Below the pieces are notes generated by a model. That model did not search any database, was not told the DNA's origin, and saw only the letters and a program-made list of their open reading frames with translations. From contig NZ_AP022586.1 of assembly GCF_010731695.1 (NCBI RefSeq), forward strand, positions 2,542,001 through 2,606,000: 64,000 nt of DNA, in the 5' to 3' direction. The translations under genes were made by a program, and so were the position numbers. Origin of the DNA: Mycolicibacterium litorale (GTDB taxonomy: Bacteria; Actinomycetota; Actinomycetes; Mycobacteriales; Mycobacteriaceae). Below, in pieces: positions 27,774 through 43,463 of the stretch. How positions within the stretch are numbered: the stretch's first letter is position 1; every line of letters starts with the position of its first letter.

Positions 27774-28300
27774 AGTTCCACTTCTCCTTCAGTTCGCTCG
27801 ATGTCCCACCGCACGCCGCCGGCGCGTAGTCGAGGACCGGACGTCGTGATGTCGAGTGCGTTCCACCGGCTGTCCCCCACCGCGCCGACCACCACGGAAG
27901 TACCACTCGCCCAGCCGAATCGGCCACCGACCCGCAGCAGCAGACCGTGCGCGACGCCAGCGGTGAGCCACAGCGCCGAGCACGGTGTGGCCGGCCCGCT
28001 GTCGCGAACCCAGTGCTCGACGTAATCGGCGTGGACACCGCGCTCGACGAGCGTGTCGCCGTCCCAGTGCACGGCCCCCACATCGGGGAACTCGCCGGGT
28101 GGCTGCAGATCGATGTCGCGGCGCCATTCGAAGATGTTGCCGCGCTGGAGCAGTGTTCCCGCGAACCCCCGTGAATCGACGTACGCGCTCTCCCCCTGCA
28201 GCCATACGACGCCGGTCCCCGTGTCGCGGGATCCATCGGCCTCGACGAGCAGCGTGCGCCGCCACAGGCCGGTACACTCACCGATCAGCACCGCGGTCAC
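27770..28300 (-). CDS. Uncharacterised beta-rich protein in the transporter/oxygenase operon
   Basis: 176 residues from the GTG at 28300, which overlaps the stop of the hydrolase gene (GTGA). The gene's own stop overlaps the oxygenase start in the same way, so it is firmly inside the operon. The sequence predicts mostly beta strands without signal peptide or membrane helix. Distinctive segments are TGLWRRTLLVEADG, VVWLQGESAYVDSRG, FEWRRDIDLQPPGE and VERGVHADYVEHW. This may be a lipocalin-like or HRI1-like barrel, but I do not recognise the family with confidence. No catalytic motif is obvious. Confidence 0.75.
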   Translation of the reverse strand: MTAVLIGECTGLWRRTLLVEADGSRDTGTGVVWLQGESAYVDSRGFAGTLLQRGNIFEWRRDIDLQPPGEFPDVGAVHWDGDTLVERGVHADYVEHWVRDSGPATPCSALWLTAGVAHGLLLRVGGRFGWASGTSVVVGAVGDSRWNALDITTSGPRLRAGGVRWDIERTEGEVEL

Positions 28301-29130
28301 GACACCGGACCGAACCGCTCGTGGAAGTGCTGGGTCAGTTCCGGCCACACGTGCGGATCGTGGCCCGGGATGAGCGGGAAACCCTTGTCGGCGGCCAACT
28401 TCTTGAGCCGCCGGATCGGTTCGACGGTCTCCTCGGGATCGACGTCGATGAACCCGCCGATCGCCCGTTCGTGCTCGATGTTCTCCGTGAGGTCGGCGGC
28501 GTCGAACGCGAAGACGAACCCGTCACCGCCGACCGAGGAGTCGAGCTGCACGACGAAGCTCTGATGACCCGGGGTGTGACCGTAGGTGGGCACCGCGGTG
28601 ATCCCCGGCGCGATCTCCGCTTCCCCGTCGGCCAGCCGCCAGTCGATACGCGGATCGTCGAAGTCGATCCGGAAGATGGCGTGCTGCTCCGGGTCCGGGT
28701 GATTCGACAGACCGTATTCCAGCTCCCGGCGCTGCGCGTGCACCGGCACCCGGCCGGCGAACAGCTTCAGGCCGCCGGCGTGGTCGACGTGCAGATGGCT
28801 GACGGCCACGACGTGGATGTCGTCGATGTCCACCCCGACCTCGGCGAGCCGCTGTTCGATCGGCTCGCCGGGGCCGGGCAGCACCGGACGGTACTCCACC
28901 GTCGGATAGAAGCGCTTGGACAGGTAGGGATCCCGGATCAGCGCCGTGTTGAACCCGGTGTCCAGCAGTACCCAGCCGCCCTCGGTCTGCAGCAGCACAC
29001 CGGGCACCGGTTCGCGCAACTGTTCGGCCGCCGATGCGCCGTGCACGCTGACCGATTTCGGGAGGTCCTCCCAGCCGAGCGTCAGCAGGATGATGCGCCG
29101 CACCCCGCTGGGTCCGACGAGGGTCGCCAT
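28297..29130 (-). CDS. Metallo-beta-lactamase-fold hydrolase (AHL-lactonase-like)
   Basis: 277 residues. The zinc-binding HxHxDH motif is VSHLHVDHAGG; further ligands are the His in TYGHTPGHQS, an Asp in FAFDAADL and the His in IPGHDPHVW. This set matches the N-acyl-homoserine-lactonase subgroup of MBL hydrolases, which open lactones; other ester or amide bonds are possible. The ATG overlaps the stop of the binding-lipoprotein gene as TGATG, and the next gene overlaps its stop. In this operon it probably acts on the imported compound or a cyclic intermediate. Confidence 0.88.
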   Translation of the reverse strand: MATLVGPSGVRRIILLTLGWEDLPKSVSVHGASAAEQLREPVPGVLLQTEGGWVLLDTGFNTALIRDPYLSKRFYPTVEYRPVLPGPGEPIEQRLAEVGVDIDDIHVVAVSHLHVDHAGGLKLFAGRVPVHAQRRELEYGLSNHPDPEQHAIFRIDFDDPRIDWRLADGEAEIAPGITAVPTYGHTPGHQSFVVQLDSSVGGDGFVFAFDAADLTENIEHERAIGGFIDVDPEETVEPIRRLKKLAADKGFPLIPGHDPHVWPELTQHFHERFGPVS

Positions 29131-30710
29131 CAGCCGGCCGACAACTCGAACAGCCGAAGCGAGTTCGGGTTCGTCACCACGTGGGCCTGCTCTACGCCCT
29201 TCAGCCACGGCTGGGCCACCATGAAGTCGTCGACGTCGGCGATGTTGAGCCAGCAGCCGGTCTCTTCGGCGGCCTTGGCTGCGTCGGAGAAGGCCTGTGG
29301 ATCATCGGTTTCCAGACCCCGGGCCAGCGCTTCGGTGATCGGCGGGGCGGAACACCCGAGGTAGTTGAGGCCGCCGTCGGCATCCCAGGAGATGTGGCCC
29401 CACGTGTAGGGCGACGGCGCATCCGGCCACCCGGTGGAGGTCAGGATGTCCGGCGCGTTGGGGGCGTCGTTGCCGATCCAGCCGTAGATCTCCGAGGTCG
29501 GGTAGCTCTGCACCTTGGCGTCGAGGCCGGCCGCGGCCAGTTGAGTTTGAATCAGGTTGTTGACCAGCTGGTTGTCGGGGTTGGAGGAGTCGTACCCGAT
29601 GGTGACGGATTTCTGGTCGGCGGGCAGGCCCGCGGCGATCTCGGTGAGGAGCGACGGGTCGTGGGTGATGTTCTGCTTGGCCAACTCCGGAGCGAGCATG
29701 TTCGGCGGATAGAGCTGTCCGGCCTTCTCGCCACGTCCGAAGTACGTCTGCTTGACCAGCGCGTCGACGTCGATCGCGGCCAACAGTGCGGCGCGGTTCT
29801 TCGGGTCGGTCAACATTCCGCGGCGCGGGTTGACGTAGAGGTAGTTCGACATCATCGTCGGCAGCGAGTAGTGCGCGTACTTGTCGTTGTCCAGGTACGA
29901 CTCCACCGCCGAGGAGGGCAGGTCGTGCAGGATCGCGGCGATCTGGCCGTTGTTGAACTGCAGCTGCTGGGCGGAGACGTCGGTGATGACGGGGATCTCG
30001 ACCTGCTCGAAATACGGCTTGTCACCCCAGTATCCGGGGTAGGCCGCCAACGCGTACCGGGATCCGACCTCCGCGGCGGTGAGCGTGTAGGGACCGGTGC
30101 CGAGGTCGTGGGTGGTCAGGTAGGTCTGCGCGTTGTCGCCGCCGGCGTTGGCCGCCAGGCCGGTCGGGCTGAGCATCCGCGGCCCGTACGGGCACGCGAG
30201 GTAGTCCAGGAACGCCGCGTTGGGTGCCTTCAACGTGATCGTGACGTCGTGGTCGCCTTGAGTGGTGATCGATTCGACGTCTTTCACCATGTACGCCGGG
30301 CCCTGGTCGACGGCCACCCGGCGGTCGAAAGAGGCCTTGACCGCAGCAGAAGTGAAGGGTGTCCCGTCGTGGAACGTGACTCCCTCCCGCAACTTGAAGG
30401 TGTACACGCGGTGATCGGGTGATTCGGTCCACTCCGTGGCCAGCAGCGGCTCGATCTCCGGTTTGTCGGTGCCGCCCTTGAACTGCAGCAGCCCCTCGTA
30501 GACGTTGGTCGTCAACAGCAGACCCTGACCGGCGTAGAAGATGTCCGGGTCCGGCGGTTGGCCCGGGTCCTGCAGGAACGACACGTGCAGCACCTTGTCG
30601 GTGGGCGCCGCGTTCGGCGCACCGTCCCCGGAATCCGAACCGCCGCAGGCGCTCAGTGTGAGGGCGGTGACCGCGGCGATTGCGGTGACGGTGGTGAGAC
30701 GACGGATCAT
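29130..30710 (-). CDS. ABC transporter substrate-binding lipoprotein, SBP_bac_5 family
   Basis: 526 residues. Signal peptide with lipobox LSAC (Cys22). The DppA/OppA-family body has LLATEWTESPDHRVYTFKL, GVTFHDGTPF and GTGPYTLTAAEVG. ATG 30710 overlaps the stop of the cysteine-hydrolase gene (ATGA); longer versions would overlap that gene heavily. It supplies the receptor for the two permeases and fused ATPase upstream. It is unlike the lipoprotein at 0.3-1.9 kb in detail and may bind a different ligand, here suspected to be a guanidino or ureido compound from the linked genes. Confidence 0.92.
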   Translation of the reverse strand: MIRRLTTVTAIAAVTALTLSACGGSDSGDGAPNAAPTDKVLHVSFLQDPGQPPDPDIFYAGQGLLLTTNVYEGLLQFKGGTDKPEIEPLLATEWTESPDHRVYTFKLREGVTFHDGTPFTSAAVKASFDRRVAVDQGPAYMVKDVESITTQGDHDVTITLKAPNAAFLDYLACPYGPRMLSPTGLAANAGGDNAQTYLTTHDLGTGPYTLTAAEVGSRYALAAYPGYWGDKPYFEQVEIPVITDVSAQQLQFNNGQIAAILHDLPSSAVESYLDNDKYAHYSLPTMMSNYLYVNPRRGMLTDPKNRAALLAAIDVDALVKQTYFGRGEKAGQLYPPNMLAPELAKQNITHDPSLLTEIAAGLPADQKSVTIGYDSSNPDNQLVNNLIQTQLAAAGLDAKVQSYPTSEIYGWIGNDAPNAPDILTSTGWPDAPSPYTWGHISWDADGGLNYLGCSAPPITEALARGLETDDPQAFSDAAKAAEETGCWLNIADVDDFMVAQPWLKGVEQAHVVTNPNSLRLFELSAG

Positions 30711-31354
30711 CGGGCCGCTCCTTCGAGGACGAGCGCGTCGGGAGCCCAGGCGCCGAAGGCGGCGAGGATCTCGTCGGTGGTGCGCAGCGCGCCGGTCTGC
30801 AGGTACTCCATGGCGTCGAGCGCGGCGTCGTGGCGGTACTGCGACGAGCCGCCGACGCAGTCGGACACCACCCGCACGTAGTAGTCCCGCTGATGGGCGT
30901 CGGCGAACGTGTAGTGCACGCACACATCGGTCAGCCCGCCGATGAGGATGAGGGTGGAGGCCTTCAATCCGCGCAGCACGATGTCGAATTCGGTGCCGAT
31001 GAACCCGGAGTAGCGGCGTTTGACGATGTGGAACTCACGGTCGTCACGCTCCGGGCGTGGACGCAGCGACGGCTCGAGGTCGGTGCCCGGGTGACCGGCC
31101 ACGCAGTGCACCCCTTCGGTGCCGTCGAGTTCGCGGCCGAAATCGACGCCGCTGGGCCGGTGCACCTCCTGGAAGAACACGACCGGAATGTCGGCGGCGC
31201 GCGCGGCGGCCACCAATTGCTCTGCGCGAGCAACCCGTTCGGCGTGCCCGGGCATGTGGTCGATGCCCACCTCGTCGGCCGGCATCCCCCCGCCCTGTTG
31301 GATGTCGACGACGACGAGCACGGGGTTGCCCACGATGAGTGGTTGTTGGGGCAC
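30707..31354 (-). CDS. Isochorismatase-family cysteine hydrolase
   Basis: 215 residues. The catalytic triad of the cysteine-hydrolase superfamily is visible: Asp in LVVVDIQQGG, Lys in IVKRRYSGF, and Cys in GLTDVCVHYTF. Members include biuret hydrolase, N-carbamoylsarcosine amidase, ureidoacrylate amidase and nicotinamidase, so hydrolysis of a carbamoyl or amide bond fits the nitrogen-rich setting. GTG start at 31354 directly follows the permease stop, with a strong AAAGGAGG just upstream. The exact substrate cannot be called from motifs. Confidence 0.9.
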   Translation of the reverse strand: MPQQPLIVGNPVLVVVDIQQGGGMPADEVGIDHMPGHAERVARAEQLVAAARAADIPVVFFQEVHRPSGVDFGRELDGTEGVHCVAGHPGTDLEPSLRPRPERDDREFHIVKRRYSGFIGTEFDIVLRGLKASTLILIGGLTDVCVHYTFADAHQRDYYVRVVSDCVGGSSQYRHDAALDAMEYLQTGALRTTDEILAAFGAWAPDALVLEGAAR

Positions 31355-32359
31355 TTATCCTCCTTTGACGGTGATGCGGGGATCGGCGGCCGCCTGCAGG
31401 AGGTCCACCATGGTGTTGATGAAGACGTAGAGCGCGCCGAGCATCAGCGTGACGCCGGCGATGGCCGGGAAGTCGGCGACCGGGATGCTCTGGGCGATGT
31501 ACTGGCCGATGCCGGGCCAGCCGAACACCTGCTCGACGACGAGGACGCCGGAGAACATCAGACCGATCTGCAGGCCGGTCATCGACAGCGCCGCACCGAC
31601 GGAGTTGCGCAGCACGTGACCGACCATGATCCGGCCTTCCGAAAGACCCTTCGCCCGTGCGGTTCTCGCGTAGTCGCTGTCGGTGTCACCCACCAGGCTC
31701 GACCGCAGCACCCGACCGATCGCCACCGCCGGACCGAGCGCGATCACCACGGCGGGCAGGAGCAGGTGGTGGAATGCGTCCGCGACGACGTCGAACCGGG
31801 CGTGCAACAGCCCGTCCACGGTGAGCAGGCCGGTCGGACCGGACGGCGCGTTCGTGATGCCGGACCGGCCGTTGGCCGGCACCCAACCGAGCTGCTGGTA
31901 GAAGACGATCAGACCGAGGATGCCGAGCAGGAACATCGGCGCCGACGAACCGGTGAACAGGACGGCCCGCAGTACCGCCGATCCACGCCACTTCAGCGTG
32001 GTGCTGAACGCCAGCAGAGCGGCGAGCACCAGGGCGATGACGATGCCGAAGAACGCCAGTTCCAGTGTGGCGGGCAGGAAGTCGCCGAGGTCGGACGCGA
32101 CGGGGTGGCGGGTGCGGTACGACGTGCCGAGATCACCCGTCACCGCACCGGTCAGGTAGTTCCAGAACTGTACGAGTACCGGATCGTTGAGGCCGAGCGC
32201 CTCCCGGCGGGCGGCGACGGCCTCCTGCGAGGCCTGGGCGCCCAGCTGTGACTTCACCGGGTCCAGCGGTGAGATGTGGGCGAGCACGAACATCACACCG
32301 GTCAGCGCGACGAGGATCGCGAACATGGCGGCGATCCTGGTCGTCACGAAGGTCCGCAT
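31355..32359 (-). CDS. ABC transporter permease, DppB/OppB family
   Basis: 334 residues, about six membrane helices. N-terminal VTTRIAAMFAILVALTGVMF helix, then an extracytoplasmic loop, the EAA cytoplasmic loop region DYARTARAKGLSEGRIMVGHVLRN, and a C-terminal AIAGVTLMLGALYVFINTMVDLL helix. It is the first of the paired permeases in family numbering but second in the operon order, 39 bp after the DppC-type gene. Its stop abuts the hydrolase start. Confidence 0.93.
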   Translation of the reverse strand: MRTFVTTRIAAMFAILVALTGVMFVLAHISPLDPVKSQLGAQASQEAVAARREALGLNDPVLVQFWNYLTGAVTGDLGTSYRTRHPVASDLGDFLPATLELAFFGIVIALVLAALLAFSTTLKWRGSAVLRAVLFTGSSAPMFLLGILGLIVFYQQLGWVPANGRSGITNAPSGPTGLLTVDGLLHARFDVVADAFHHLLLPAVVIALGPAVAIGRVLRSSLVGDTDSDYARTARAKGLSEGRIMVGHVLRNSVGAALSMTGLQIGLMFSGVLVVEQVFGWPGIGQYIAQSIPVADFPAIAGVTLMLGALYVFINTMVDLLQAAADPRITVKGG

Positions 32360-32398: not shown

Positions 32399-33265
32399 CT
32401 ACCTGCCCTTCATGAGGTTGCGCAGGCTGTCGCCGGCGATGTTGCCGACCAGCGCCAGGACCAGCACGCCGAGTCCGGGCATCACCGGAATCCACCATTG
32501 CTGCAGGAAATAGCTCAGGTTGCGGGCCGAGTCCGCGCCCAGTTCCGGTGCGGGCGCGGACTGACCGAGCCCGAGGAACGACAGCGCGGCCAGGGTGAGG
32601 ATCAGCGTGCCGATGTCCATGCTGGCCGCGACCACCGCGTTCGGCACCGCACCGGGCACCAGGTGGCGGGTGGCCAGCCGGATCGGACCGACCCCGGCGA
32701 GTTTGGCGGCCTCGACGTGGGGGCGGGCGGCGAGCCGCGCGATCTCGCCGCGCACCAGCCGCGCGTAGAACGGCCACCACACGATCGACACGGCGATCAG
32801 CGTGTGCAGGAAGCCAGGCCCGAGCGCGGCGACCACCGCGATCGCGAGAACCGGTGCGGGCAGCGACAGGAACGCGTCGGTGATCCGCATCAGCGTCGAA
32901 TCGATCCAGCCTCCGGCCGTGCCGGCGATCACCCCGATCAGCCCGCCGATGAACAGGCCGAGCGCCACCACGGCCAGCGCCGCGAACCAGCTCGAGCGTG
33001 CCCCGTAGAGCACCCGCGACAGGATGTCGCGGCCGACGCTGTCGGTGCCGAGGAGGAATCCGTCGACACCGGGTGCCTGCAGTGGCATCCCGACGGGCAG
33101 CAGTGGATCGTGGGGTGAGATCACCGGTACGGCGACCGCGACCAGGGTGACGACGACGATGCTCGAGAAGCCGATCCAGTTGACCACCGCCGACCGTGAC
33201 TGTGGCAGGGCCGGCACCCGTCGCCGCACCCGCACCATGGTGGGGGCCGGCAGCGCCACCGCCAT
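32399..33265 (-). CDS. ABC transporter permease, DppC/OppC family
   Basis: 288 residues from ATG 33265, which overlaps the stop of the ATPase gene as TGATG. It begins with a hydrophobic helix after a basic N-terminus, followed by HDPLLPVGMPLQ and the DppC hallmark GTDSVGRDILSRVLYGAR. The EAA loop is HVEAAKLAGVGPIRLATRHLV. It pairs with the DppB-type protein downstream to form the membrane channel. Confidence 0.93.
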   Translation of the reverse strand: MAVALPAPTMVRVRRRVPALPQSRSAVVNWIGFSSIVVVTLVAVAVPVISPHDPLLPVGMPLQAPGVDGFLLGTDSVGRDILSRVLYGARSSWFAALAVVALGLFIGGLIGVIAGTAGGWIDSTLMRITDAFLSLPAPVLAIAVVAALGPGFLHTLIAVSIVWWPFYARLVRGEIARLAARPHVEAAKLAGVGPIRLATRHLVPGAVPNAVVAASMDIGTLILTLAALSFLGLGQSAPAPELGADSARNLSYFLQQWWIPVMPGLGVLVLALVGNIAGDSLRNLMKGR

Positions 33266-35262
33266 CAGCCGGCCTTCCGCTCGATGCAGGCGACCTGGTG
33301 GGGGTTGCCGGGGAAGCCTTCGAGGCGGACGTCCAGTCCGGTGTCGCCGCAGGCGTCGATCGCCAGCGGGCACCGCGGATGGAAGGCGCATCCGGTGGGC
33401 GGGGACAACGGGCTGGCCGGCTCCCCCGCCAGGGACCGCGGTTCGTGCCCCAGATCGGGGATCGAGTCGACCAGGGCCTGGGTGTACGGGTGTGCGGGCC
33501 GGGCGATCACCCGGTCGGCGGGCCCGATCTCGACGATGCGGCCGAGGTACATCACCGCGATGCGGTCGGCGACCACCCGGGCCACCGACAGATCGTGGGT
33601 GACGAACACCACCGACATGTCGAGGCTCCGTCGCAGGTCGCCGATCAGGTTCAGGACCGATGCGGCCAGGGAGACGTCCAGTGCGCTGGTCGGCTCGTCG
33701 CACAACAGCACCTCGGGCGGCACCACCGTCGCACGGGCCAGCGAGACACGTTGTCGTTGACCGCCCGACAGCTGACCCGCGCGGGACTTGGCGATGTCGG
33801 CGGGCAACCCGACGCGCTCGAGCACCTCGGCGACCCGCTCCCGCCGGCGGGACCGGGACAGCCCTGTCCGGCGCAACCGCTCGCCGATCAGCTCACCGAC
33901 CGACAGCCATGGCGTCAGCGAGGCGCCCGCATCCTGGAACACCATCTGCGGGCGCTCTTCTCCGATCAGCTCGACCGATCCCGACGACGGTGGCTCGAGC
34001 CCGGCGATGACCCGCAGCAGGGTGGATTTGCCCGAACCGCTCTCCCCGACCAGCGCGATCGACTCCCCGTGCCCGACGCGCAGCGAAACGCCACGCAGCG
34101 CATGCAGTTTCCCGTCCCTGTCGGCTGACCGGTCGAGCCATCGCCGGGCCACCGAGAAGGTCTTGGTGACGTCGCGCAGCGCCACCGACGGCGGCAACTC
34201 CCCACGGTCGGTATAGGTGGCGGGGAACGCCTGTCCGGTGGTGGTGGCCGCGGCCCCGAGCCGCTCAGCGACCTCCGCGAACGGGCGGATGCACGCGCTG
34301 ACGCGCTCGGCTGCCACCGCGAGCGGATCCGGTGGCGCCGTATTGCACTCCTCGGTGGCCAGCGCACAGCGCGGAACGAACGCGCACCCGGGAAGCGGTG
34401 TCACCGCGCTGGGCACCGCGCCGGCGAGTGCGGCCAGCGGGCGGTCCCGCGCGGTGTCGAGCGTCAGCCGGGAGCGCAGCAATCCGTGGGTGTAGGGGTG
34501 AGCCGGGGTGGCCAGCACCGCAGCGCTGGGGCCGATCTCGGCGATCCGGCCGGCGTAGAGCACCGCGATGCGGTCGGAGATCTGGGCGGCCACACCGAGG
34601 TCGTGGGTGATCAGCACGATGCTGCAACCGATCTCGTCGCGCAGGCGCCGCAGCAGCCGCAGCACCTGGGCCTGCACCGTGACGTCGAGCGCGGTGGTGG
34701 GTTCGTCGGCGACGATGAGGTCGGGGTCACCGGCGATCGCGATCGCGATCATCACTCGTTGCCGCAGACCGCCGGACAGTTCGTGTGGGAAGGCCCGCAT
34801 CCGGCGGTCCGGCTCCGGGATACCGACGGCGGTCAGCAGGCGTAGTGCCTCGTCCTCGCTGCCCGCCGCCTCGGCCACCTGCTTGCCGATGCGCATGGTG
34901 GGATTCAGCGAGGTCATCGGATCCTGGAACACCGCACCCAGATCGAGGCGGCGCACTTTGCGCAGCGCCTTCGCCTCACCGCGGACCATGTCGGACCCGG
35001 CGACGCGGATCGTGCCCGTGGTGGTGGCGTTGTCCGGTAGCAGACCGAGCAGACCGAACCCGAGAACGCTTTTGCCCGAACCGGATTCGCCGACCAGACC
35101 GAGGATCTCACCGCGCGCGATGGCCAGCGAGACGCCGCGCAGCGCGTGGATGGCGCGGCCGTTGCGGCGGAAGGTCACCCGCAGGTCGCCGACGGTGGCG
35201 ACCGGGTCCGGCGTCGACGGCACCACGGCGGGTGCGTCGGCTTCGGAGACAGCGATGCCCAT
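33265..35262 (-). CDS. ABC transporter ATPase with two fused nucleotide-binding domains (DppD-DppF type)
   Basis: 665 residues. Two complete ABC domains in tandem. Each has Walker A GESGSGKS, a signature (LSGGLRQRV; LSGGQRQRV), Walker B (LIVADEPTTALD; LLCDEPTSALD), and an oligopeptide-type C-terminal Cys cluster region (GCAFVPRCALATEEC; GCAFHPRCPLAIDAC). Peptide importers normally use separate DppD and DppF. ATG 35262 has AGGAG six bases upstream; a TTG at 35265 is also in frame. It heads an eight-gene operon, with a CTGTC-N4-GACAG palindrome 86 bp upstream of the start. Confidence 0.94.
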   Translation of the reverse strand: MGIAVSEADAPAVVPSTPDPVATVGDLRVTFRRNGRAIHALRGVSLAIARGEILGLVGESGSGKSVLGFGLLGLLPDNATTTGTIRVAGSDMVRGEAKALRKVRRLDLGAVFQDPMTSLNPTMRIGKQVAEAAGSEDEALRLLTAVGIPEPDRRMRAFPHELSGGLRQRVMIAIAIAGDPDLIVADEPTTALDVTVQAQVLRLLRRLRDEIGCSIVLITHDLGVAAQISDRIAVLYAGRIAEIGPSAAVLATPAHPYTHGLLRSRLTLDTARDRPLAALAGAVPSAVTPLPGCAFVPRCALATEECNTAPPDPLAVAAERVSACIRPFAEVAERLGAAATTTGQAFPATYTDRGELPPSVALRDVTKTFSVARRWLDRSADRDGKLHALRGVSLRVGHGESIALVGESGSGKSTLLRVIAGLEPPSSGSVELIGEERPQMVFQDAGASLTPWLSVGELIGERLRRTGLSRSRRRERVAEVLERVGLPADIAKSRAGQLSGGQRQRVSLARATVVPPEVLLCDEPTSALDVSLAASVLNLIGDLRRSLDMSVVFVTHDLSVARVVADRIAVMYLGRIVEIGPADRVIARPAHPYTQALVDSIPDLGHEPRSLAGEPASPLSPPTGCAFHPRCPLAIDACGDTGLDVRLEGFPGNPHQVACIERKAG

Positions 35263-35347: not shown

Positions 35348-35361
35348 CTGTCACTTGACAG
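35348..35361. promoter_or_regulatory. Operator A1 (CTGTC-N4-GACAG) upstream of the transporter operon
   Basis: Perfect inverted repeat CTGTC-ACTT-GACAG. On the minus strand it reads AAAACTGTCAAGTGACAG, nearly identical to operator B1 at 43050-43063 (AAAACTGTCAGGTGACAG). It is the operon-side site of a pair; its partner A2 is 94 bp away, core to core. A shared GTAACC starts exactly 50 bp from the first base of this site, as it does in the other region. Confidence 0.75.
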
Positions 35362-35435
35362 TTTTCACCGGCCGTCGGCGCGGTGGGTGTCGCGCGCGTA
35401 ACCAATTGACGGCACACGTAACTGATGGGTATCGC

Positions 35436-35461
35436 GCGTTTCTGTCGTGTGACAGAAACGC
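35436..35461. promoter_or_regulatory. Operator A2, 11-bp-arm palindrome upstream of the TetR gene
   Basis: Perfect palindrome with arms GCGTTTCTGTC and GACAGAAACGC and centre GTGT, the longest of the four sites. It ends 42 bp before the TetR ATG at 35504. A weak promoter-like TTGACG (35406-35411) and TATCGC (35430-35435) lie immediately upstream, so repressor here would cover the transcription start, consistent with autoregulation. Confidence 0.78.
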
Positions 35462-35503
35462 CGGGGTATACCGATTCACCGGTTCGTGGGCCACGATAGA
35501 ACC

Positions 35504-36208
35504 ATGCCGCTCACCCGGGCCGGTCGTCCGCGCCTGAACACCGCACGACGCCCCGGCATGTCGGCGCGTGACGAAATCCTCGATGCCGCAGGCGAACTGT
35601 TCACCACGCTGGGGTACGCGAGCACCTCGACGCGCCATATCGCGGAATCGGTCGGCATCCGGCAGGCGTCGATGTACCACTACTTCAAGACCAAGGACGA
35701 CATCCTCTGCGCGCTGCTGAGCCAGACGGTCACCCCCACATTGGGTTTCATCCCCAGCCTGCTGGGTGCGCGGCCGGCGTTGACGGCCGCCGAGCACCTG
35801 CACGCGCTCGCGGCGTTCGACGGTGACCAATTGCTCAGCGGACGGTGGAATCTGGGCGCGTTGTATCTGCTGCCGGAGTTGCGCGACGCCCGCCTGGAAC
35901 CGTTCTGGTCCGACCGCGAACGACTGCGGTTGCACTACCTCGCGCTCAGCCGCGGCGTACTCGATCAGACCGGCGTCCACGAGGCGGCCGCTGATCTGCC
36001 GTTCCGCCTGGTGGAGTCACTGGTCAACATGTGGTCGGTGCCCGCGGGCCCGCGGCGCGAGGAGTTGCCGGTCCACGTGGCCGACGCCTGCCTGCGGGTG
36101 CTCGGGGTCCCCGACGGTGCCACCGCCGCCCTGCGGGCCCGCAGCGGGGAGGCGGTGCGGGACTACACCCGCTCACTGAGTGCGTTGCCGGTGACATCGG
36201 TCAGATAG
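35504..36208 (+). CDS. TetR-family repressor, candidate master regulator of the flanking operons
   Basis: 234 residues. N-terminal HTH: ARDEILDAAGELFTTLGY, then STRHIAESVGIRQASMYHYFKTKDDI, a standard TetR DNA-binding domain at about residues 20-70. The C-terminal ligand domain has no recognised subfamily. ATG 35504 is chosen over the GTG at 35486. The gene is divergent from the transporter operon and convergent on the allophanate hydrolase gene, whose 3' end it overlaps by 46 bp. Four matching palindromes flank it: two in its own promoter region and two at 43.05-43.16 kb. The ligand may be the imported compound or a product. Confidence 0.9.
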   Translation: MPLTRAGRPRLNTARRPGMSARDEILDAAGELFTTLGYASTSTRHIAESVGIRQASMYHYFKTKDDILCALLSQTVTPTLGFIPSLLGARPALTAAEHLHALAAFDGDQLLSGRWNLGALYLLPELRDARLEPFWSDRERLRLHYLALSRGVLDQTGVHEAAADLPFRLVESLVNMWSVPAGPRREELPVHVADACLRVLGVPDGATAALRARSGEAVRDYTRSLSALPVTSVR

Positions 36209-37899
36209 CGCCGCCAGTCCCCGTAGGACGAGATGTCCTCACCGGACTCCCAAGCGTCGAGCGCGCAGCCGAACCCGACCACCTCGGTACCGTCGGCCAG
36301 CGTGACCCGGCCCAGCATCATCGGGGCGGGCAGCGCCGCGAGGAAGTCTCCGAGCATGGCGGCCCCGATCAACCACAGCTCACCGCCGATCGCCGCACCG
36401 GATGCCGCGCCCACCCGCATCAGGCCGGGTTTGGGCGGGTCGGTGTCCAGGCGCGAGAGGCGGTAGAGCGGGGCGGTGAGCACGGGTCCGACCCAACGGG
36501 CGCCCCGCTGGTCCAGCTGCCACGCCAGCGGCTGGCCACGCAGGTGCGCGCCGACGACGAGCAGCGGTACCGCCTGCAGTCCGGCACGCATCGGCCAGAC
36601 CATCTGCCGGACAACAGGATCCGAGTGCGCCATGACACGGCGCGCGATATCGAGCGCCAGCGCGTCGGCGCCCGCTCGGGCGACCACCGACACCCCGAAC
36701 TGCGCGCCGTCGACGGTCCCGGACGGCACGGCGACCGCGCACATGTCCATGAGGTTGCAGAAGTTGGTGTACGTGCCCAGCCGCGAGTTGACCCCGATCG
36801 GATCGGCCTCGACCTCGGCGATCGTCGGGTGTTCGGTCGTGGTCGGGATCAGCAGCGCATCGCAGTCGCCGAGTTCGGCCATCGCCACGGCGGTGAGTTC
36901 GGCCAGGCGCACCCGGTCGCGCAGCAGCCGTGTGGCGGGGACCGTACCGGCCGCCGAGATGATGGCACCCACGGTCGGGTCGACCTGGTCTGGGTGGGCG
37001 TCGACGAACTCCCCGACCGCTTCGTGGCGTTCGGCCACCAGGCCGCCGTCGTAGAGCAGTCGCGCCGCCTCGAGGAACGGGGTGAGGTCGATCTCGCGGA
37101 CGCTCACGCCCCGCTCCTCGAGCCGGGCCCTGGCGTCGCCGAATGCGTTCTGCCAGGCTGGATTCAGGCCGGGCAGTTCACGGGGTACGGCCACCCGCGG
37201 CTCGGCCGGCGCGCCGAGTGGAGCCCCGGGCGGGAACGGCCGCGCCGCCGTCGTCTCGTCGGCACCCGCCAGCACGCCCATGGCGGCGTCGGCGGTGTCG
37301 AGGTCGCGGGCGAAGACGGTGACGCAGTCGTACGAGCGGCAGGCGGGCACCACACCGTCGGTGGGCACCACACCGTAGGTCGGTTTGATCCCGACGATGC
37401 CCTGCAGTGCGGCGGGGACCCGCCCGGATCCCGCGGTGTCGGTGCCGATCCCGACGTCGACGATGCCCAGGGCGACCGCGACCGCCGATCCGGAACTCGA
37501 CCCGCCCGAGATGTATTCGGGCCGGCGGGCGTCGCGCACCGCGCCGTGCGGGCTGCGCGTGCCGACCAGCCCCGTGGCGAACTGGTCGAGGTTGGTCACC
37601 CCGATCACGACGGCACCGGCTGCGCGCAGGCGCGCGACCACCGGGGCGTCGGCAAGGGCGGCCTCGCCGGCATAGCCGGGACAGGCCGCGGTGGTGGGGA
37701 TGCCCGCGACGTCGACGTTGTTCTTCACCGCGGCGGTCAGACCGGCCAGCGGGAGGCCGGCTCCCGCCGCAACGGCGGCATCGACGGCCCGCGCGTCGGC
37801 GAGCGCGTCGGCCAACGGCCGCAGGGCGATCCAGATCTCGGGTCGCGCGGTGGACTCGATCGTGGTGTACGCGGCGTGCACGCGGTCGACGGCGCTCAT
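36163..37899 (-). CDS. atzF: Allophanate hydrolase (AtzF type)
   Basis: 578 residues. Amidase-signature domain with catalytic Lys in TAAVKNNVDVAG, GGSSSGSAVAVALG (cis-Ser) and the nucleophile loop GTDTAGSGRVPAAL. The C-terminal ~130 residues (VVGFGCALDAWESGEDISSY) match the extra AtzF domain. It converts allophanate to ammonia and CO2, the last step after urea carboxylase or carboxyguanidine deiminase. ATG 37899 overlaps the carboxylase stop (ATGA). The 3' end overlaps the TetR 3' end by 46 bp. Last gene of operon B. Confidence 0.95.
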   Translation of the reverse strand: MSAVDRVHAAYTTIESTARPEIWIALRPLADALADARAVDAAVAAGAGLPLAGLTAAVKNNVDVAGIPTTAACPGYAGEAALADAPVVARLRAAGAVVIGVTNLDQFATGLVGTRSPHGAVRDARRPEYISGGSSSGSAVAVALGIVDVGIGTDTAGSGRVPAALQGIVGIKPTYGVVPTDGVVPACRSYDCVTVFARDLDTADAAMGVLAGADETTAARPFPPGAPLGAPAEPRVAVPRELPGLNPAWQNAFGDARARLEERGVSVREIDLTPFLEAARLLYDGGLVAERHEAVGEFVDAHPDQVDPTVGAIISAAGTVPATRLLRDRVRLAELTAVAMAELGDCDALLIPTTTEHPTIAEVEADPIGVNSRLGTYTNFCNLMDMCAVAVPSGTVDGAQFGVSVVARAGADALALDIARRVMAHSDPVVRQMVWPMRAGLQAVPLLVVGAHLRGQPLAWQLDQRGARWVGPVLTAPLYRLSRLDTDPPKPGLMRVGAASGAAIGGELWLIGAAMLGDFLAALPAPMMLGRVTLADGTEVVGFGCALDAWESGEDISSYGDWRRYLTDVTGNALSERV

Positions 37900-40800
37900 G
37901 CCGGGATCCCGGCGAGGTCACTGTCGCCGTCCAGGACGACCAGCGGTGTTCCCGGCTCCACCTGGTTGCCCGCCTCGACGAGGATGTGGGTCACCACGCC
38001 GTCGGCGGGCGCCGTCACGACGGTCTCCATCTTCATCGCCTCCAGCGCCAGCAGTGCCTGTCCGGCGGTCACCCGTTCCCCCACGGCGACAGCGACTTTC
38101 CACACGTTCGACGAGAACGGGGCGTCCACGCGCTGCGCGCCGTCGTCGAGGACGAGTTCGGTGGTGTCCGCGGCCCGCGACTGCGCCCGCTCGGCGCGGT
38201 CGAACTCCCCGGCCGCCGCCCACGCCTCCCGCTCGGTGGAGAACGCGGCGCTCTGGCGGGCCCGGAACTCGGCGATGGAGTCGGCGTTGTGGGCCAGGAA
38301 GCGCTCGTGTTCGTCGAGGGAGAACGTGCCGTCGGTGATCTCGACGCTGCCGCGGCCGGCGGCGAGATCGGCACGCAGGTCGAGCAGTTCCTCGGCCGAC
38401 ACCGGATACCAGGAGATGCGGTCGAAGAATCGCAGCAGCCATGGGTGGCCGGGTTCGAACGGCGCGGTGTGGCGGTGGGTGCTCCACACCTGCGTGGTGC
38501 GGCCGACGAACTGGTACCCGCCCGGCCCCTCCATCCCGTAGATGCACAGGTACGCACCACCGATACCGACGGAGTTCTCCGCCGTCCAGGTGCGGGCCGG
38601 ATTGTATTTCGTGGTGACCAGGCGGTGGCGGGGGTCGAGTGGAGTCGCCACGGGCGCACCGAGATACACGTCACCGAGGCCCAGCGTCAGGTACTCGGCG
38701 GCGAACACGATGTCCGCGACGTCGTCCTGGGACGCCAATCCGTTGACGCGCCGGATGAATTCGATGTTGGACGGGCACCACGGCGCGTCGTCGCGCACCC
38801 CGGACATGTACCGCGCGATCGCCTCCCGGGTCGCCGGATCGTCCCAGGACAGCGGCAGCCGCACCGACCGGCTCGGTACCACCAGCTCCGAGGTGGCGGG
38901 CAGATCGTCTTCGAGTTCGGTCAGCAGTCCGAGGAGGCGGTCGATCGGCAGCTGTTGCGGGTCCACATGCACCTGCAGTGAGCGGATACCCGGTGTGAGG
39001 TCGACGATTCCGGTCACCCGCGTCTCGGCCAGCCGGCTGTGCAGGGCGTGCACGCGGGCGCGCAACGCCAGGTCGAGCACCATGTCGCCGTACTCGATCA
39101 GGAGGTTGTCGTCACCGCTGCGACGGTAGGTGACGCGGGGCTGACCGTCGCGGCGGGCCAGGACGCCGTCGTCACCGTCTCCCCCGGTCGCGAGCAGTGC
39201 CGGTGCGCCCACGTCGCTGCGCGCCGGCGCGTCCGCGGCGCGCACGGGCACGAACCGCACGGTGTCGCCCGGACGCAGCTGGCCGAGCTTCCATCGCTCC
39301 GCGGCCACCACCGTCACCGGGCAGACGAAGCCACCGAGACTGGGCCCGTCGGGGCCAAGCAGGATCGGGGTGTCGCCGGTGAAGTCCAGTGCGCCAACGG
39401 AATACGGGGTGTCGTGGATGTTCGACGGGTGCAGTCCGGCCTCCCCGCCGTCGGGCCGGGCCCAGCGCGGCCTCGGCCCTTCGAGCCGGACGCCGGTTCG
39501 GGCGGAGTTGAAGTGGACGCGGTACTCCGCGGCGAACAGGGTCTCGATGTCGTCGCGGGTGAAGAACTCCGGCGCGCCGTGCGGGCCCTCGGTGACGGCC
39601 AGCGTCCACCGGGAGGTCAGGGCGGGGCGCATCGCGGGGTCGACCGGGCCGCCCCCGCAGCCGGCGTCGGTCGACGGCCGCGCGGCCCGCAGCACGTCTC
39701 CGGCGACCAGGGGCCGGCCGCCGTGGCCACCGAACCGGCCCAGGGTGAACGTCGAGGCGCTGCCCAGGTAGGCGGGGATGTCGAGGCCACCGGCGACCAG
39801 CACGTAGGTCCGCAGGCCTGCGCTCTCCGGGGCGCCGACGTCCAGCACTCCCCCGGCCGGGACCTCCACCGGCTCCCACATCGGCACCGGCCGGCCGTCG
39901 ACGGTGATGCGGCACTCGGCGCCCGTGACACACACGACGGTGGCGTGGGTGACGCGCAGCGCCGGCCCGGATGCGGTGCACTCGAGACCCGCTGCGCCGT
40001 CGGGGTTGCCGAGGGCACGGTTGCCGAGCCGGAAGGACAGGTCGTCCATCGGGCCGCTCGGCGGCACGCCGACGTGCCAGAGCCCGACCCGGCCGGGCAG
40101 GTCCTGCACGGTGGTCAGCAGGCCGGGGCGTTCGACCGTGATTCGGGGCCGGGTGTCGGCGACGTCGGCGAGCGTCGCGGTGCTGTGCCGGGCGGCGCGG
40201 ACGTCTCCGTGGGTCACAGCCGCGCGCAGCGCGCCGATGTTGGTCTCGATGCCGTGCAGCACGATGTCGTCCAGCGCGGCGCCGAGTCGCTCCAACGCCT
40301 CGTCGCGTCCGGTGGCGGTGGCGATCACCTTGGCCAGCAGCGGATCGTAGAACGAGGACACCTCGGTGCCGTCCTCGATCCAGGTGTCCACGCGTACGTC
40401 GGCGGGGAAGGACACGGCGGTCAGCGTTCCGGTGCTGGGGCGGTAGTCGCGTGCCGGATCCTCGGCATACACGCGGGCCTCCAAGGCGTGGCCGTGCACC
40501 GGCACCGCACCGGTGGCCAGATGGGGTCGCAGCATGTCGGTCTCGCCGCGGCCGAGCCGGAACATCCACGCGGCGAGGTCGATTCCGGTGACGGCCTCTG
40601 TCACCGGGTGTTCCACCTGCAGCCTGGCGTTGACCTCGAGGAACGACGCCTGCTGCCGGACCGGGTCGTAGACGAACTCGACGGTGCCCGCGGACCGGTA
40701 GGCGACCGAGGCGGCCAGCGCCCGAGACGCCTGGTGCAGCAGGGCGCGGACCGGGTCGGGCAGCGCCGGCGCCGGCGCCTCTTCGATCACCTTCTGGTTG

Positions 40801-41495
40801 CGCCGCTGCAGGGAGCAGTCGCGGTCGCCGAGGGAGACGACGTTGCCGGTGCCGTCGCCGAAGATCTGCACCTCGACGTGGCGTGCGGTCTCGACGAACC
40901 GTTCGACGAACACCCCCGCGGTGCCGAAGCTGCGGGCGGCGAGGCGCGCCACCCGCTCGAAAGCCGCGCGTAGTTCGACGGCGTTGCGGCACACCTGCAT
41001 TCCGATTCCGCCGCCGCCGCCGGTCGCCTTGAGCATGACCGGGTAGCCGATGATGTCCGCGGCGTCGAGTGCGGCGCCGGCGTCGGCGAGCAGATCCGAT
41101 CCCGGGAACACGGGCACCCCGGCGTCGCGGGCCGCGGCGCGGGCGGTGTGCTTGGTGCCGAACACGCGCAGTTGCTCCGGCGTCGGGCCGACGAACGTCA
41201 TCCCCGCGGCCTCCACCGCCTCGGCGAAATCGCCGTCTTCGGAGAGAAATCCGTAACCGGGGTGGATCATGTCGGCGCCGCTGGCGAGCGCGGCGGCCAG
41301 GATGGCGTCGATGCGCAGGTAGCTGTCGCCTGGCGCGGACGGCCCGAGCCGCACGGCGTGATCGGCGAGCCGCACGTGCGGGGCGCCGCGGTCGGCGTCG
41401 GAGAACACCGCCACGGTACGCAGTCCCAGCAGGTGCGCCGAACGCAGGAGGCGCACGGCGATCTCGCCGCGGTTGGCGATCAGCGCGGTGCTCAC
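37896..41495 (-). CDS. Biotin-dependent urea/guanidine carboxylase
   Basis: 1199 residues. Order: biotin carboxylase domain (about 1-445; ATP-grasp loop ATGGGGGIGMQ, FLEVNARLQVEHPVTE), carboxyltransferase halves AHS2/KipA-like (about 450-770; VERPGLLTTVQDLPGR) and AHS1/KipI-like (about 800-1020; LTPGIRSLQVHVDP), and a biotinyl domain (about 1125-1199; EAMKME with the biotinylated Lys). Usually annotated urea carboxylase, but enzymes co-encoded with two DUF1989 proteins have been shown to prefer guanidine. The two DUF1989 genes directly upstream therefore favour guanidine carboxylase. The GTG start overlaps the DUF1989 stop. The specificity-determining carboxyltransferase residues need alignment to known enzymes. 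Confidence 0.9.
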   Translation of the reverse strand: MSTALIANRGEIAVRLLRSAHLLGLRTVAVFSDADRGAPHVRLADHAVRLGPSAPGDSYLRIDAILAAALASGADMIHPGYGFLSEDGDFAEAVEAAGMTFVGPTPEQLRVFGTKHTARAAARDAGVPVFPGSDLLADAGAALDAADIIGYPVMLKATGGGGGIGMQVCRNAVELRAAFERVARLAARSFGTAGVFVERFVETARHVEVQIFGDGTGNVVSLGDRDCSLQRRNQKVIEEAPAPALPDPVRALLHQASRALAASVAYRSAGTVEFVYDPVRQQASFLEVNARLQVEHPVTEAVTGIDLAAWMFRLGRGETDMLRPHLATGAVPVHGHALEARVYAEDPARDYRPSTGTLTAVSFPADVRVDTWIEDGTEVSSFYDPLLAKVIATATGRDEALERLGAALDDIVLHGIETNIGALRAAVTHGDVRAARHSTATLADVADTRPRITVERPGLLTTVQDLPGRVGLWHVGVPPSGPMDDLSFRLGNRALGNPDGAAGLECTASGPALRVTHATVVCVTGAECRITVDGRPVPMWEPVEVPAGGVLDVGAPESAGLRTYVLVAGGLDIPAYLGSASTFTLGRFGGHGGRPLVAGDVLRAARPSTDAGCGGGPVDPAMRPALTSRWTLAVTEGPHGAPEFFTRDDIETLFAAEYRVHFNSARTGVRLEGPRPRWARPDGGEAGLHPSNIHDTPYSVGALDFTGDTPILLGPDGPSLGGFVCPVTVVAAERWKLGQLRPGDTVRFVPVRAADAPARSDVGAPALLATGGDGDDGVLARRDGQPRVTYRRSGDDNLLIEYGDMVLDLALRARVHALHSRLAETRVTGIVDLTPGIRSLQVHVDPQQLPIDRLLGLLTELEDDLPATSELVVPSRSVRLPLSWDDPATREAIARYMSGVRDDAPWCPSNIEFIRRVNGLASQDDVADIVFAAEYLTLGLGDVYLGAPVATPLDPRHRLVTTKYNPARTWTAENSVGIGGAYLCIYGMEGPGGYQFVGRTTQVWSTHRHTAPFEPGHPWLLRFFDRISWYPVSAEELLDLRADLAAGRGSVEITDGTFSLDEHERFLAHNADSIAEFRARQSAAFSTEREAWAAAGEFDRAERAQSRAADTTELVLDDGAQRVDAPFSSNVWKVAVAVGERVTAGQALLALEAMKMETVVTAPADGVVTHILVEAGNQVEPGTPLVVLDGDSDLAGIPA

Positions 41496-42124
41496 GGGCG
41501 GGTCACGATCATACGCACCGGCGTGGGGTTGAAGGCGTTGCAGGGGTTGTTGATCTGCGGGCAGTTGGAGACGAGCACGAGTGTGTCGATGTCGGCGCGC
41601 AACGCGATCCGCTTACCCGGTCCGGACAGGCCGTCGACGATTCCGAGCGCACCGTCGGGGTCGACGGGCACGTTCATGAACCAGTTGATGTTGCTCGCCA
41701 GATCGCGGGCCCCGAGCCCGTGGCGGGCGCCCTCCACCAGGAAGTTCTCCATGCAACCGTGCTGGGCACGGGTGTGCTGTCCGTAGCGCAGTGTGTTCGA
41801 TTCCTTCGAGCACGCGCCGCCGAGGGTGTCGTGGACCCCGACCTCGTCGGCGACGACGGTCATCAACGCCGCCCCGGTGTCGGCGCGCAGTACCGAGCCG
41901 GTGGTCAGTGCGATACGGCCCTGGCGGGCAATGGTTTCCGCGGCGGAGTACCGCACCGCGGTGTCGGCGGCCGAGTACAGCAGGCAGTCGACGGCCTGGT
42001 TGCCCTCGAGGTCGACGATGGTCAGCACGTCGCCGGCGGAGACGACCGCCGACCAGGCCGCCCGGGCGGGGACGGTCTCGTCGAGCACGGTCTGTCCGGG
42101 AACGGGGGCCTCGATGGTGGTCAC
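41492..42124 (-). CDS. DUF1989 protein, urea-carboxylase-associated protein 1 / carboxyguanidine deiminase subunit
   Basis: 210 residues. Cys-containing motifs of the family are present: GGACSKESN, QHGCMENFLVEG and SNCPQINNPCN, which would bind zinc. Core DUF1989 strands: VSAGDVLTIVDLEGNQAVDCLLYSA. Paired DUF1989 proteins from such operons were identified as carboxyguanidine deiminase (CgdA/CgdB), which turns carboxyguanidine into allophanate and ammonia. GTG start overlaps the upstream DUF1989 stop (GTGA), and its stop overlaps the carboxylase start (GTGA). Confidence 0.88.
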   Translation of the reverse strand: MTTIEAPVPGQTVLDETVPARAAWSAVVSAGDVLTIVDLEGNQAVDCLLYSAADTAVRYSAAETIARQGRIALTTGSVLRADTGAALMTVVADEVGVHDTLGGACSKESNTLRYGQHTRAQHGCMENFLVEGARHGLGARDLASNINWFMNVPVDPDGALGIVDGLSGPGKRIALRADIDTLVLVSNCPQINNPCNAFNPTPVRMIVTRP

Positions 42125-43047
42125 AGCACTCCTCGGGCGACGAGATCGGCGTCGGTGTTGGCGATCGCCTGGCGGTGTTCGGGGCCCAGTTCGCCGATGA
42201 GCTCACCGGCGGCGAGCCGGCCGAGGTCGGTTGCGGCGGGCCAGGCGTGCAGCTGCAGGGGTGAGCAGGTGAATTGCGGGCGGGGATCCAACGGGTGCGC
42301 GGTGTTGGCGAGCAGCACGATGGTGTCGACGTGGAGCAGCAGGTCGACCGCGGTGCCCGGACCTGCCGACCCCTCCCACCGCAGGACGCCGTCACCGCCG
42401 GCGCGCACGGATTTGAAGAACGATACCGACGGCACCAGATCACGTTGTGCCATACCGTTTTTCAGCGCGGCGAGCAGCAGCAGCTCGCGGCCCGCCGGAG
42501 CCGGTGACTCCGGGGCACCCGACCCGTACTTCGCCTCGTTGCCGGCGAGCGTCGTCGTGCCCGCGAGCGCATCGTGATGCCCTGAGGTGTCGGCGACGAC
42601 GGTCGCGAGCACCCGCCCGAAGCCGCTCAGCAGCGGGTGACCGGGCCCGAGGTATGCCTGCCACGGCACCTTGACGGTGTCGGCGACGTTGAGCCGCTCG
42701 TGTGTCGCGTCGGCGCGGTGCAGGAGAAGATGCGCGCAGGCGTCACCGTCCACATCGGTCATGCGGATCCGCGTACCGCGGGCCAGCACCGCGGTGGTGT
42801 AGCCGCCGGGCGCCACCGTCTCCGACCACACCAGGCGTTCGGCCGCAACGCCGTCGGGTGCGGTCGGACTGCTCGACGCCGGAACGTGACGCATGTGGTC
42901 GGCGGTGCGGCCGTGCTGGGCGCGTGCGTGCGCCCGCGCGCCGGCGGTGGTGGCGGTCGACGACGTCGCTGCACTGCCGTCGGACGCGCGGAGATCGCTG
43001 GTCAAAGGTGCTCCCGGGGATCGCGGGGCCGGCGTCGACGGCGGCAT
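42121..43047 (-). CDS. DUF1989 protein, urea-carboxylase-associated protein 2 / carboxyguanidine deiminase subunit
   Basis: 308 residues, with a ~65-residue Ala/Ser-rich N-terminal extension before the DUF1989 core (VLARGTRIRMTDVDGDACAHLLLHR, VVADTSGHHDALAG, FTCSPLQLHAW). It lacks the Cys triad of its partner, as expected for the second subunit. ATG 43047 is preferred over the GTG at 43056 because AGGTGA lies five bases upstream; that ribosome-binding site is itself part of the palindromic operator at 43050-43063. First gene of operon B. Confidence 0.87.
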   Translation of the reverse strand: MPPSTPAPRSPGAPLTSDLRASDGSAATSSTATTAGARAHARAQHGRTADHMRHVPASSSPTAPDGVAAERLVWSETVAPGGYTTAVLARGTRIRMTDVDGDACAHLLLHRADATHERLNVADTVKVPWQAYLGPGHPLLSGFGRVLATVVADTSGHHDALAGTTTLAGNEAKYGSGAPESPAPAGRELLLLAALKNGMAQRDLVPSVSFFKSVRAGGDGVLRWEGSAGPGTAVDLLLHVDTIVLLANTAHPLDPRPQFTCSPLQLHAWPAATDLGRLAAGELIGELGPEHRQAIANTDADLVARGVL

Positions 43048-43049
43048 TT

Positions 43050-43063
43050 CTGTCACCTGACAG
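43050..43063. promoter_or_regulatory. Operator B1 (CTGTC-N4-GACAG) at the start of the carboxylase operon
   Basis: Perfect inverted repeat CTGTC-ACCT-GACAG, 2 bp upstream of the ATG of the first DUF1989 gene. On the coding strand its centre forms the ribosome-binding site AGGTGA. Its left and right flanks match operator A1 (GACAGTTTTC in both on the plus strand). Confidence 0.75.
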
Positions 43064-43144
43064 TTTTCGTGTCGGCCGATCGCCGGTGGTTGCCGAGAGG
43101 TAACCGATCACCCGCGAAGCGTTAAGAACGCGGGGCGCGTGTGA

Positions 43145-43158
43145 CTGTCGTGTGACAG
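43145..43158. promoter_or_regulatory. Operator B2 (CTGTC-N4-GACAG) upstream of the YciI-like gene
   Basis: Perfect inverted repeat CTGTC-GTGT-GACAG with the same centre as operator A2. It is 95 bp from B1, core to core, and 30 bp before the YciI-like ATG. GTAACC begins 50 bp from the start of B1, exactly as in the A region. Confidence 0.75.
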
Positions 43159-43187
43159 GAGACCCGCCCGGTCGCTACCCTTCGCCG

Positions 43188-43463
43188 ATGTTCCACGTGC
43201 TGACACTGACCTACCTGCAACCGCTCGACGTCATCGACCGGAGCCGGCCCGCCCACCTCGAATGGCTCGCAGGAGAAGTGGACTCCGGCCGGATCCTGCT
43301 CGCCGGCCGGGTCGAGAGCCAGACCGGCGCGGTGCTCGTCACCGGCGATCTCAGCGCTGAGGAGGCCGATGCGCTCGCAGCAGCCGACCCGTACACGCAG
43401 GCCGGAGTGGTGTCCTACGCGCGCACCTCGTTCAACGGCGCGTTCCGCGCGCCGGGCCTCTAG
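43188..43463 (+). CDS. YciI-like small protein
   Basis: 91 residues. Dimeric alpha/beta barrel family related to YciI: FHVLTLTYLQPL, then HLEWLAGEVDSGRILLAGR, DPYTQAGVVSYARTSF. The first ATG consistent with the family is 43188; a GTG at 43152 falls inside the operator. Its promoter region is shared with operon B, so it is probably a member of the same regulon. Function not established; YciI-like proteins are sometimes small hydrolase/dehydrochlorinase-like enzymes. Confidence 0.8.
   Translation: MFHVLTLTYLQPLDVIDRSRPAHLEWLAGEVDSGRILLAGRVESQTGAVLVTGDLSAEEADALAAADPYTQAGVVSYARTSFNGAFRAPGL

Follow-up and report, generated by a model that had tools for sequence, protein, structure and literature searches.

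We analyzed a stretch of 64,000 nucleotides from the genome of Mycolicibacterium litorale (contig NZ_AP022586.1, positions 2,542,001 to 2,606,000, here referred to as the "window"), in which the motif CTGTC-N4-GACAG stands in two pairs at the promoters of a transporter operon, a TetR-family regulator gene and a carboxylase operon. We consider it likely that the four sites are operators of this regulator, an AmtR, that the paired modules bracket a GlnR-like box, and that the genes controlled in this way make up a guanidine regulon. In the mechanism that we propose, each operator pair and the enclosed GlnR-like box would together act as a single promoter module. As we infer, an AmtR dimer on each operator would hold the leftward operon low and, in the first module, amtR as well, and GlnR bound between the operators would activate under nitrogen limitation. 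The two dimers should lie on the same DNA face, since the spacing of 94/95 bp is close to nine helical turns. The transporter operon would import a substituted guanidine, from which a dioxygenase and a small protein with an Asp-x-Arg motif would release guanidine, and the carboxylase operon would then turn guanidine into carboxyguanidine, allophanate and finally ammonia and CO2.

Operator pairs and the regulator AmtR

A sequence-only reading of the window had described four copies of CTGTC-N4-GACAG and no other, and both statements hold: there are four exact matches (Table 1) against 0.15 expected by chance, and none of 100 dinucleotide shuffles of the window reached four. The sequence also bears out the distances between copies (94 bp in the transporter/amtR pair and 95 bp in the carboxylase/YciI pair), the matching flanks of the two operon-side copies (GACAGTTTTC), the GTGT centre of the other two, and a GTAACC 50 bp from the first operator in both regions (35398 and 43100). 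The amtR-side copy is the core of an inverted repeat with 11-bp arms at 35436-35461.

In the whole M. litorale genome, 11 sites were found against 5 for a reversed control, and the seven outside the window lie under open frames, six of 876 to 3012 nt and one (in the stretch L001) of 522 nt. Because of this the single motif lacks genome-wide specificity and hence is not diagnostic, while the pair is specific. When pairs spaced 79-109 bp were searched, two exact ones were found in the M. litorale genome, and 44 of 198 same-genus genomes (own included) contained a pair, as compared with 1 of 198 for the reversed control. The motif is therefore frequent elsewhere only in part, as single sites (seven more in the genome) and not as pairs. 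Moreover, in a family draw of 301 genomes, 29 of them from the same genus and partly overlapping the 198-genome set, the pair occurred in eight and the control pair in none. Six of the eight belong to the same genus and two to the 272 genomes of other genera. The latter two pairs are both spaced 95 bp; one (L209) adjoins a deiminase gene, and the other (L210) separates an AmtR gene from an ABC (ATP-binding cassette) ATPase gene. The lone site in L001 (CTGTCATCTGACAG, 1501-1514, G000:C1:247375) is apparently intergenic. It was rejected as a further target, its 221 surrounding bases matching none of the 20 other genomes searched, and is probably due to chance.

The regulator encoded at 35504 has six strong matches in PDB, of which 5e57 ranks first and is followed by 5dy1, 5dy0, 5dxz, 5mqq and 6gy3 at about E 1e-30 to 2.3e-26, the next-best match being at E 2e-10. 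Three of the six are named AmtR and three TetR family regulator. We take 5e57 to be the AmtR of M. smegmatis, and 5dxz, 5dy0 and 5dy1, called TetR family regulator in PDB, are presumably the AmtR of C. glutamicum, whose box presumably differs from CTGTC-N4-GACAG. The solved structures nearest to the regulator are AmtR proteins, its recognition region has VGIRQASMYHYF where 5e57 has VGVRQASLYHHF, and the mycobacterial operator CTGTC-N4-GACAG is present at the locus; on these comparisons the protein is classified as an AmtR. The same motif is said to be given as the AmtR box of M. smegmatis in the abstract of Petridis from 2016, and if this is right, the operator motif is already known. AmtR was detected at E <=1e-20 in 89 of the 198 same-genus genomes, and the layout of regulator and operators is found again within the genus as well as in two further genera.

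We then compared promoters from the window and the fetched loci, namely 47 ABC/amtR promoters, of which 41 are non-redundant, and 47 UAAP1 upstream regions of 450 bp, of which 44 are, with operator sites counted at no more than one mismatch. An operator pair is present in 35 of the 41 ABC/amtR promoters, with spacings of 94 (21), 95 (10), 96 (1), 106 (2) and 75 (1), and the 95-bp pair in 22 of the 44 UAAP1-side promoters. After alignment of the ABC/amtR pairs spaced 94-96 (n=32) and the carboxylase pairs spaced 95 (n=22), GTAAC was seen 50 bp from the first operator in 30/32 and 22/22 modules, respectively. GTAACC belongs to the GlnR-like box between the operators, where it reads GTTAC on the minus strand. 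In the carboxylase modules the minus-strand GTTAC-N6-GCAAC fits the published GlnR consensus, which we took from PMC3662644, and Gn2AC-n6-GnAAC occurs on that strand in 22 of 22 modules, own included (mean of mononucleotide shuffles 0.2). The looser GnnAC-n6-GnnAC occurs on the minus strand of 31 of 32 amtR modules (mean of mononucleotide shuffles 1.4). For the msmeg_2184 promoter of M. smegmatis, a GlnR peak in chromatin immunoprecipitation and an electrophoretic mobility shift assay are described in the relevant part of PMC3662644. GTAACC is thus most likely part of a GlnR site, and judging by these matches the assignment appears firm for the carboxylase promoter but less secure for that of amtR. 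Helical phasing was rejected as proof of cooperation: spacings of 75, 94-96 and 106 bp are near whole turns, yet 71 and 74 bp also occur, and because of these spacings and of the few independent changes, cooperation on the same face is put forward here only as something that may take place.

The carboxylase operon and its distribution with AmtR

In the alignment to 5i8i, Asp704 of the carboxylase corresponds to Asn1330 of K. lactis urea amidolyase, and Asp is also found at Asp1584. Asp at K. lactis positions 1330 and 1584 is the signature by which guanidine carboxylases are parted from urea carboxylases, following the residue rule as set out in part of PMC11410670. Among the 45 non-redundant carboxylases of the fetched loci, the first diagnostic Asp is present in all and the second in 44, L129 being unreadable there. 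Because of these signature residues and the UAAP1/UAAP2 deiminase subunits, the "urea" carboxylase is read as a guanidine carboxylase and the operon as one for guanidine degradation.

The distribution of the genes was analyzed in the 198 same-genus genomes, in which the local AmtR type was defined by at least 61% identity. This type was found in 49 genomes, and 48 of them also contain a guanidine carboxylase or a guanidinase, the lone exception being a genome that is 70% complete; among the genomes that lack the local type, 72 of 149 contain one of these enzymes (Fisher 1.2e-11, with no correction for phylogeny). The carboxylase is absent from nine of the 49, and eight of these nine have a guanidinase. 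Conversely, AmtR at E <=1e-20 is present in 77 of 78 carboxylase genomes and lies within 15 kb of 62 of 79 carboxylase loci. As to the guanidinases, the nearest solved relatives of the L072 query are 9fek and 7esr, to which it aligns with its diagnostic Thr, His and Trp in place (chain numbering taken as residue plus two), and the other 45 were assigned by similarity.

Guanidine-I riboswitches were detected in 59 of the 198 genomes at E <=1e-3, 32 of them above the family cut-off. Of 46 guanidinase genes, 26 have such a riboswitch within 1 kb; of 79 carboxylase genes, none does, and only two have one within 10 kb. The riboswitch accompanies the guanidinase in this sample, and the carboxylase is accompanied by AmtR. 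A guanidine riboswitch at the M. litorale locus was rejected, as none was found in window positions 28000-46000 up to E 1, and the whole genome contains no guanidine-I match up to E 1e-3.

Several further arrangements were observed among the relatives. In L072 (G011), a guanidine-I riboswitch precedes a sodium-solute-symporter-like gene that is divergent from the guanidinase gene. In L092 (G051), at 555-5831, such a riboswitch lies upstream of creatininase-, glutamine synthetase- and TetR-like genes and a diverged AmtR gene, which face a guanidine carboxylase operon; the CTGTC-N4-GACAG pair is absent at the carboxylase operon in both L092 and L088 (G194). A second carboxylase type, matching the carboxyltransferase part only, was seen in L100, L102, L115 and L125-L128. 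The AmtR beside it shows 44-55% identity, and the operators are altered (spacing 74 in L100, 71 in L115); some genomes carry both AmtR types.

The transporter operon

The transporter operon consists of eight genes, abutting or nearly so and directed leftward (Table 1). The Asp-x-Arg protein (176 residues) gave no Pfam match up to E 0.01; its D42 and R44 are invariant in 21 of 21 sequences, and its predicted structure is mostly strand (predicted local distance difference test, pLDDT, 91.8). As described in part of PMC12508155, MgdL cleaves N-(hydroxymethyl)guanidine after the action of a 2-oxoglutarate (2OG) dioxygenase, is modelled as a beta-barrel and has catalytic D49 and R51. Asp-x-Arg proteins were found in 60 of the same-genus genomes, 59 of which have a guanidine degradation route. 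Outside the genus, a Noviherbaspirillum stretch (L204) contains an Asp-x-Arg homologue after isochorismatase- and lactonase-like genes, together with guanidine-I and guanidine-II riboswitches and carboxylase genes. Likewise, a metagenome-assembled genome of Rhodobacter (L207) contains a homologue, both riboswitches, deiminase genes and, some 5 kb away on the opposite strand, a 2OG dioxygenase. Because of the Asp-x-Arg protein, the dioxygenase and these homologues near guanidine riboswitches, we propose that the operon may import and unpack a substituted guanidine. The lactonase-like hydrolase scores below the cut-offs of the AttM/AiiA models. Plasmids yielded only one weak Streptomyces match and were rejected as a source of Asp-x-Arg relatives, and a contig scan aimed at the MgdL of Vreelandella gave 73 loci, none of them titled with that genus but among them those of Noviherbaspirillum and Rhodobacter.

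Table 1. Genes and promoter elements of the AmtR locus (window coordinates)
Feature	Position	Strand	Basis
2-oxoglutarate/Fe(II) dioxygenase, candidate guanidine-releasing hydroxylase	26730..27773	-	DIOX_N, 2OG-FeII_Oxy; best solved relative 9ovh
Beta-rich protein, D42-S-R44, candidate MgdL-like hemiaminal-guanidine lyase (start inferred)	27770..28300	-	Asp-x-Arg, strand-rich model
Metallo-beta-lactamase-fold, lactonase-like hydrolase (start inferred)	28297..29130	-	Lactamase_B
Solute-binding protein family 5 (start inferred)	29130..30710	-	SBP_bac_5
Isochorismatase-family hydrolase	30707..31354	-	PF00857 E 2.6e-39
ABC importer permease B	31355..32359	-	BPD_transp_1
ABC importer permease C (start inferred)	32399..33265	-	BPD_transp_1
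ABC importer double ATPase (Opp/Dpp type)	33265..35262	-	domain match
AmtR operator, transporter-operon side	35348..35361	.	exact motif; conserved in relatives
GlnR-like box GTTAC-N6-GACAC	35387..35402	-	GnnAC-n6-GnnAC in 31/32 aligned promoters
Second GlnR-like box GATAC-N6-GTTAC	35418..35433	-	found in window copy; relatives aligned
AmtR operator, amtR side	35442..35455	.	exact motif; core of inverted repeat; alignment of relatives
amtR, TetR-family regulator	35504..36208	+	TetR_N; top PDB match 5e57 (Transcription regulator AmtR) at E 4.9e-54
Allophanate hydrolase	36163..37899	-	TIGR02713 642.8 bits, cut-off 511
Guanidine carboxylase (model name urea carboxylase)	37896..41495	-	TIGR02712 1744 bits; signature residues
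Carboxyguanidine deiminase subunit UAAP2	41492..42124	-	TIGR03424
Carboxyguanidine deiminase subunit UAAP1, TTG start inferred	42121..43005	-	TIGR03425; like TTG start in L081
AmtR operator, carboxylase-operon side	43050..43063	.	exact motif; alignment of relatives
GlnR-like box GTTAC-N6-GCAAC, directed at carboxylase operon	43089..43104	-	GnnAC-n6-GnAAC in 22/22 aligned promoters
Second AmtR operator, 95 bp from first	43145..43158	.	exact motif; 95-bp pair in 22/44 promoters
YciI-like gene, possible but not conserved target	43188..43463	+	YCII

Alternative readings and known systems

AmtR may do no more than cap expression and may sense nothing, nitrogen status being conveyed through GlnR and the amount of AmtR, and we give this account a chance only a little short of even. 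The AmtR of M. smegmatis is a repressor of msmeg_2184, to which it binds, and regulates its own gene (PMC4222082, section 10); nitrogen control in this species is kept without amtR and lost without glnR, and AmtR binding is unaffected by urea or amino acids, as stated in parts of the same paper. However, guanidine is not among the effectors named in those parts, and the company that AmtR keeps with the guanidine carboxylase, 77 of 78 genomes, speaks against a regulator that senses nothing. The AmtR of C. glutamicum is a global nitrogen regulator taken off DNA by a PII protein (as described in part of PMC4617892). In our case guanidine is the obvious candidate inducer. A more specific form of this idea, which we put forward tentatively and hold to be somewhat improbable, is that AmtR of this type is a guanidine-responsive repressor replacing the riboswitch: guanidine, carboxyguanidine or an imported guanidino compound would free the operators, GlnR would give the nitrogen signal, and the two promoters would follow AND logic.

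The sequence-only reading had placed four transcripts under the control of the TetR protein. The shared operator before the transporter operon, amtR and the carboxylase operon agrees with this at sequence level; the YciI-like gene did not prove to be a conserved target. We consider it unlikely that the paired sites are independent operators of divergent genes, with YciI the true fourth target and the spacing incidental. In the M. litorale genome one gene does face each site, about 30 bp separate the end of the second operator from the start of YciI, which makes an effect on YciI possible, and the amtR module is flanked by plausible targets on both sides; moreover, L085, L086 and L087 lack both YciI and the second operator, which counts toward YciI as a target. 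However, no YciI gene was found in 14 of the 22 non-redundant loci that keep the 95-bp carboxylase pair, and the idea that the far operator is there because of YciI is rejected on this ground; the open frame that lies past this operator in L089 is unlike YciI. Several loci that lack the carboxylase operon have YciI and an alcohol dehydrogenase gene after amtR, which makes YciI look more like a long-standing neighbour than a central target. The alcohol dehydrogenase itself (43575-44627 in the window), which keeps its place near amtR in several such genomes, has the aldehyde reductase Ahr as its nearest match, with a score under the cut-off.

A regulon for urea nitrogen only, with a urea carboxylase operon as the target of AmtR and GlnR and no role for guanidine, is suggested by the name of TIGR02712 and by the M. 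smegmatis papers, which call the gene urea amidolyase and discuss urea metabolism, but is very improbable in view of the guanidine-type Asp in 45/45 carboxylases, the deiminase subunits in the operon, the lack of effect of urea on M. smegmatis AmtR binding and the guanidinase in eight of the nine genomes having the local AmtR type without the carboxylase.

Several points weigh against a guanidine regulon governed by paired AmtR operators. Six of the 41 ABC/amtR promoters keep one operator only, and 22 of the 44 carboxylase-side regions lack the 95-bp pair, two having pairs at 71 or 74 bp and the rest one site or none; a search of these 22 widened to 900 bp gave no further pair of 60-120 bp. 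Six of them resemble the final part of another gene, in which case the promoter may lie further upstream, and in L130 an exact site is present about 1.6 kb upstream. The strict Gn2AC-n6-GnAAC is found on the minus strand of 0/32 amtR/transporter promoters and on either strand of 1/32, the core AC-n9-AC is uninformative (shuffles give 13.9/32 and 10.9/22), and the shuffles for the GlnR box were mononucleotide ones made from promoter sequences that are related to each other. The seven additional single sites found genome-wide appear to be due to chance. The 61% cut was set after the list had been seen, and phylogeny is not corrected for in the co-occurrence counts. The fetched stretch of L204 gave no dioxygenase match, and the likeness to MgdL (A0A265DXW6) is drawn from the published description of that protein.

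The guanidine regulon proposed here can be set beside four known systems. AmtR of M. smegmatis (MSMEG_4300) with msmeg_2184-2189 is of the same family, and AmtR there represses urf1/urf2, carboxylase and amidase genes under the control of GlnR, as is proposed for M. litorale, but here amtR lies within the locus and the operators are paired around the GlnR-like box. The carboxylase pathway controlled by guanidine-I/II riboswitches has the same enzymes and signature residue, whereas here a protein repressor gene and its operators stand at the promoter and no guanidine riboswitch occurs in 28000-46000. In the methylguanidine system MgdH/MgdL of Vreelandella boliviensis, as far as it is described in part of PMC12508155, a 2OG dioxygenase also adjoins a small Asp-x-Arg protein (modelled there as a beta-barrel) with guanidine carboxylase genes nearby; the locus studied here differs by its Opp/Dpp-type importer, its lactonase-like and isochorismatase-like hydrolases and its AmtR operators. 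With C. glutamicum AmtR, the family is shared (5dy1/5dy0/5dxz match at about E 1e-30). In the open-licence literature, no paper joining guanidine and AmtR was found, by which absence from print is not shown, and urea carboxylase and AmtR appear together in the M. smegmatis work only. The motif, the regulator and the GlnR partner are of known kind; new to us are the paired-operator module, the second (transporter) operon and the guanidine reading.

According to part of a 2025 review (PMC12186494), no guanidine-binding regulatory protein is known. Guanidine has so far been known as sensed by RNA switches, and here a protein regulator goes with the carboxylase pathway across the sampled genus. 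The guanidine reading would give AmtR a plausible candidate inducer, and both the effector of AmtR and the substrate of the dioxygenase operon become directly testable. It also suggests that the published urea regulon of M. smegmatis may be re-read as a guanidine regulon.

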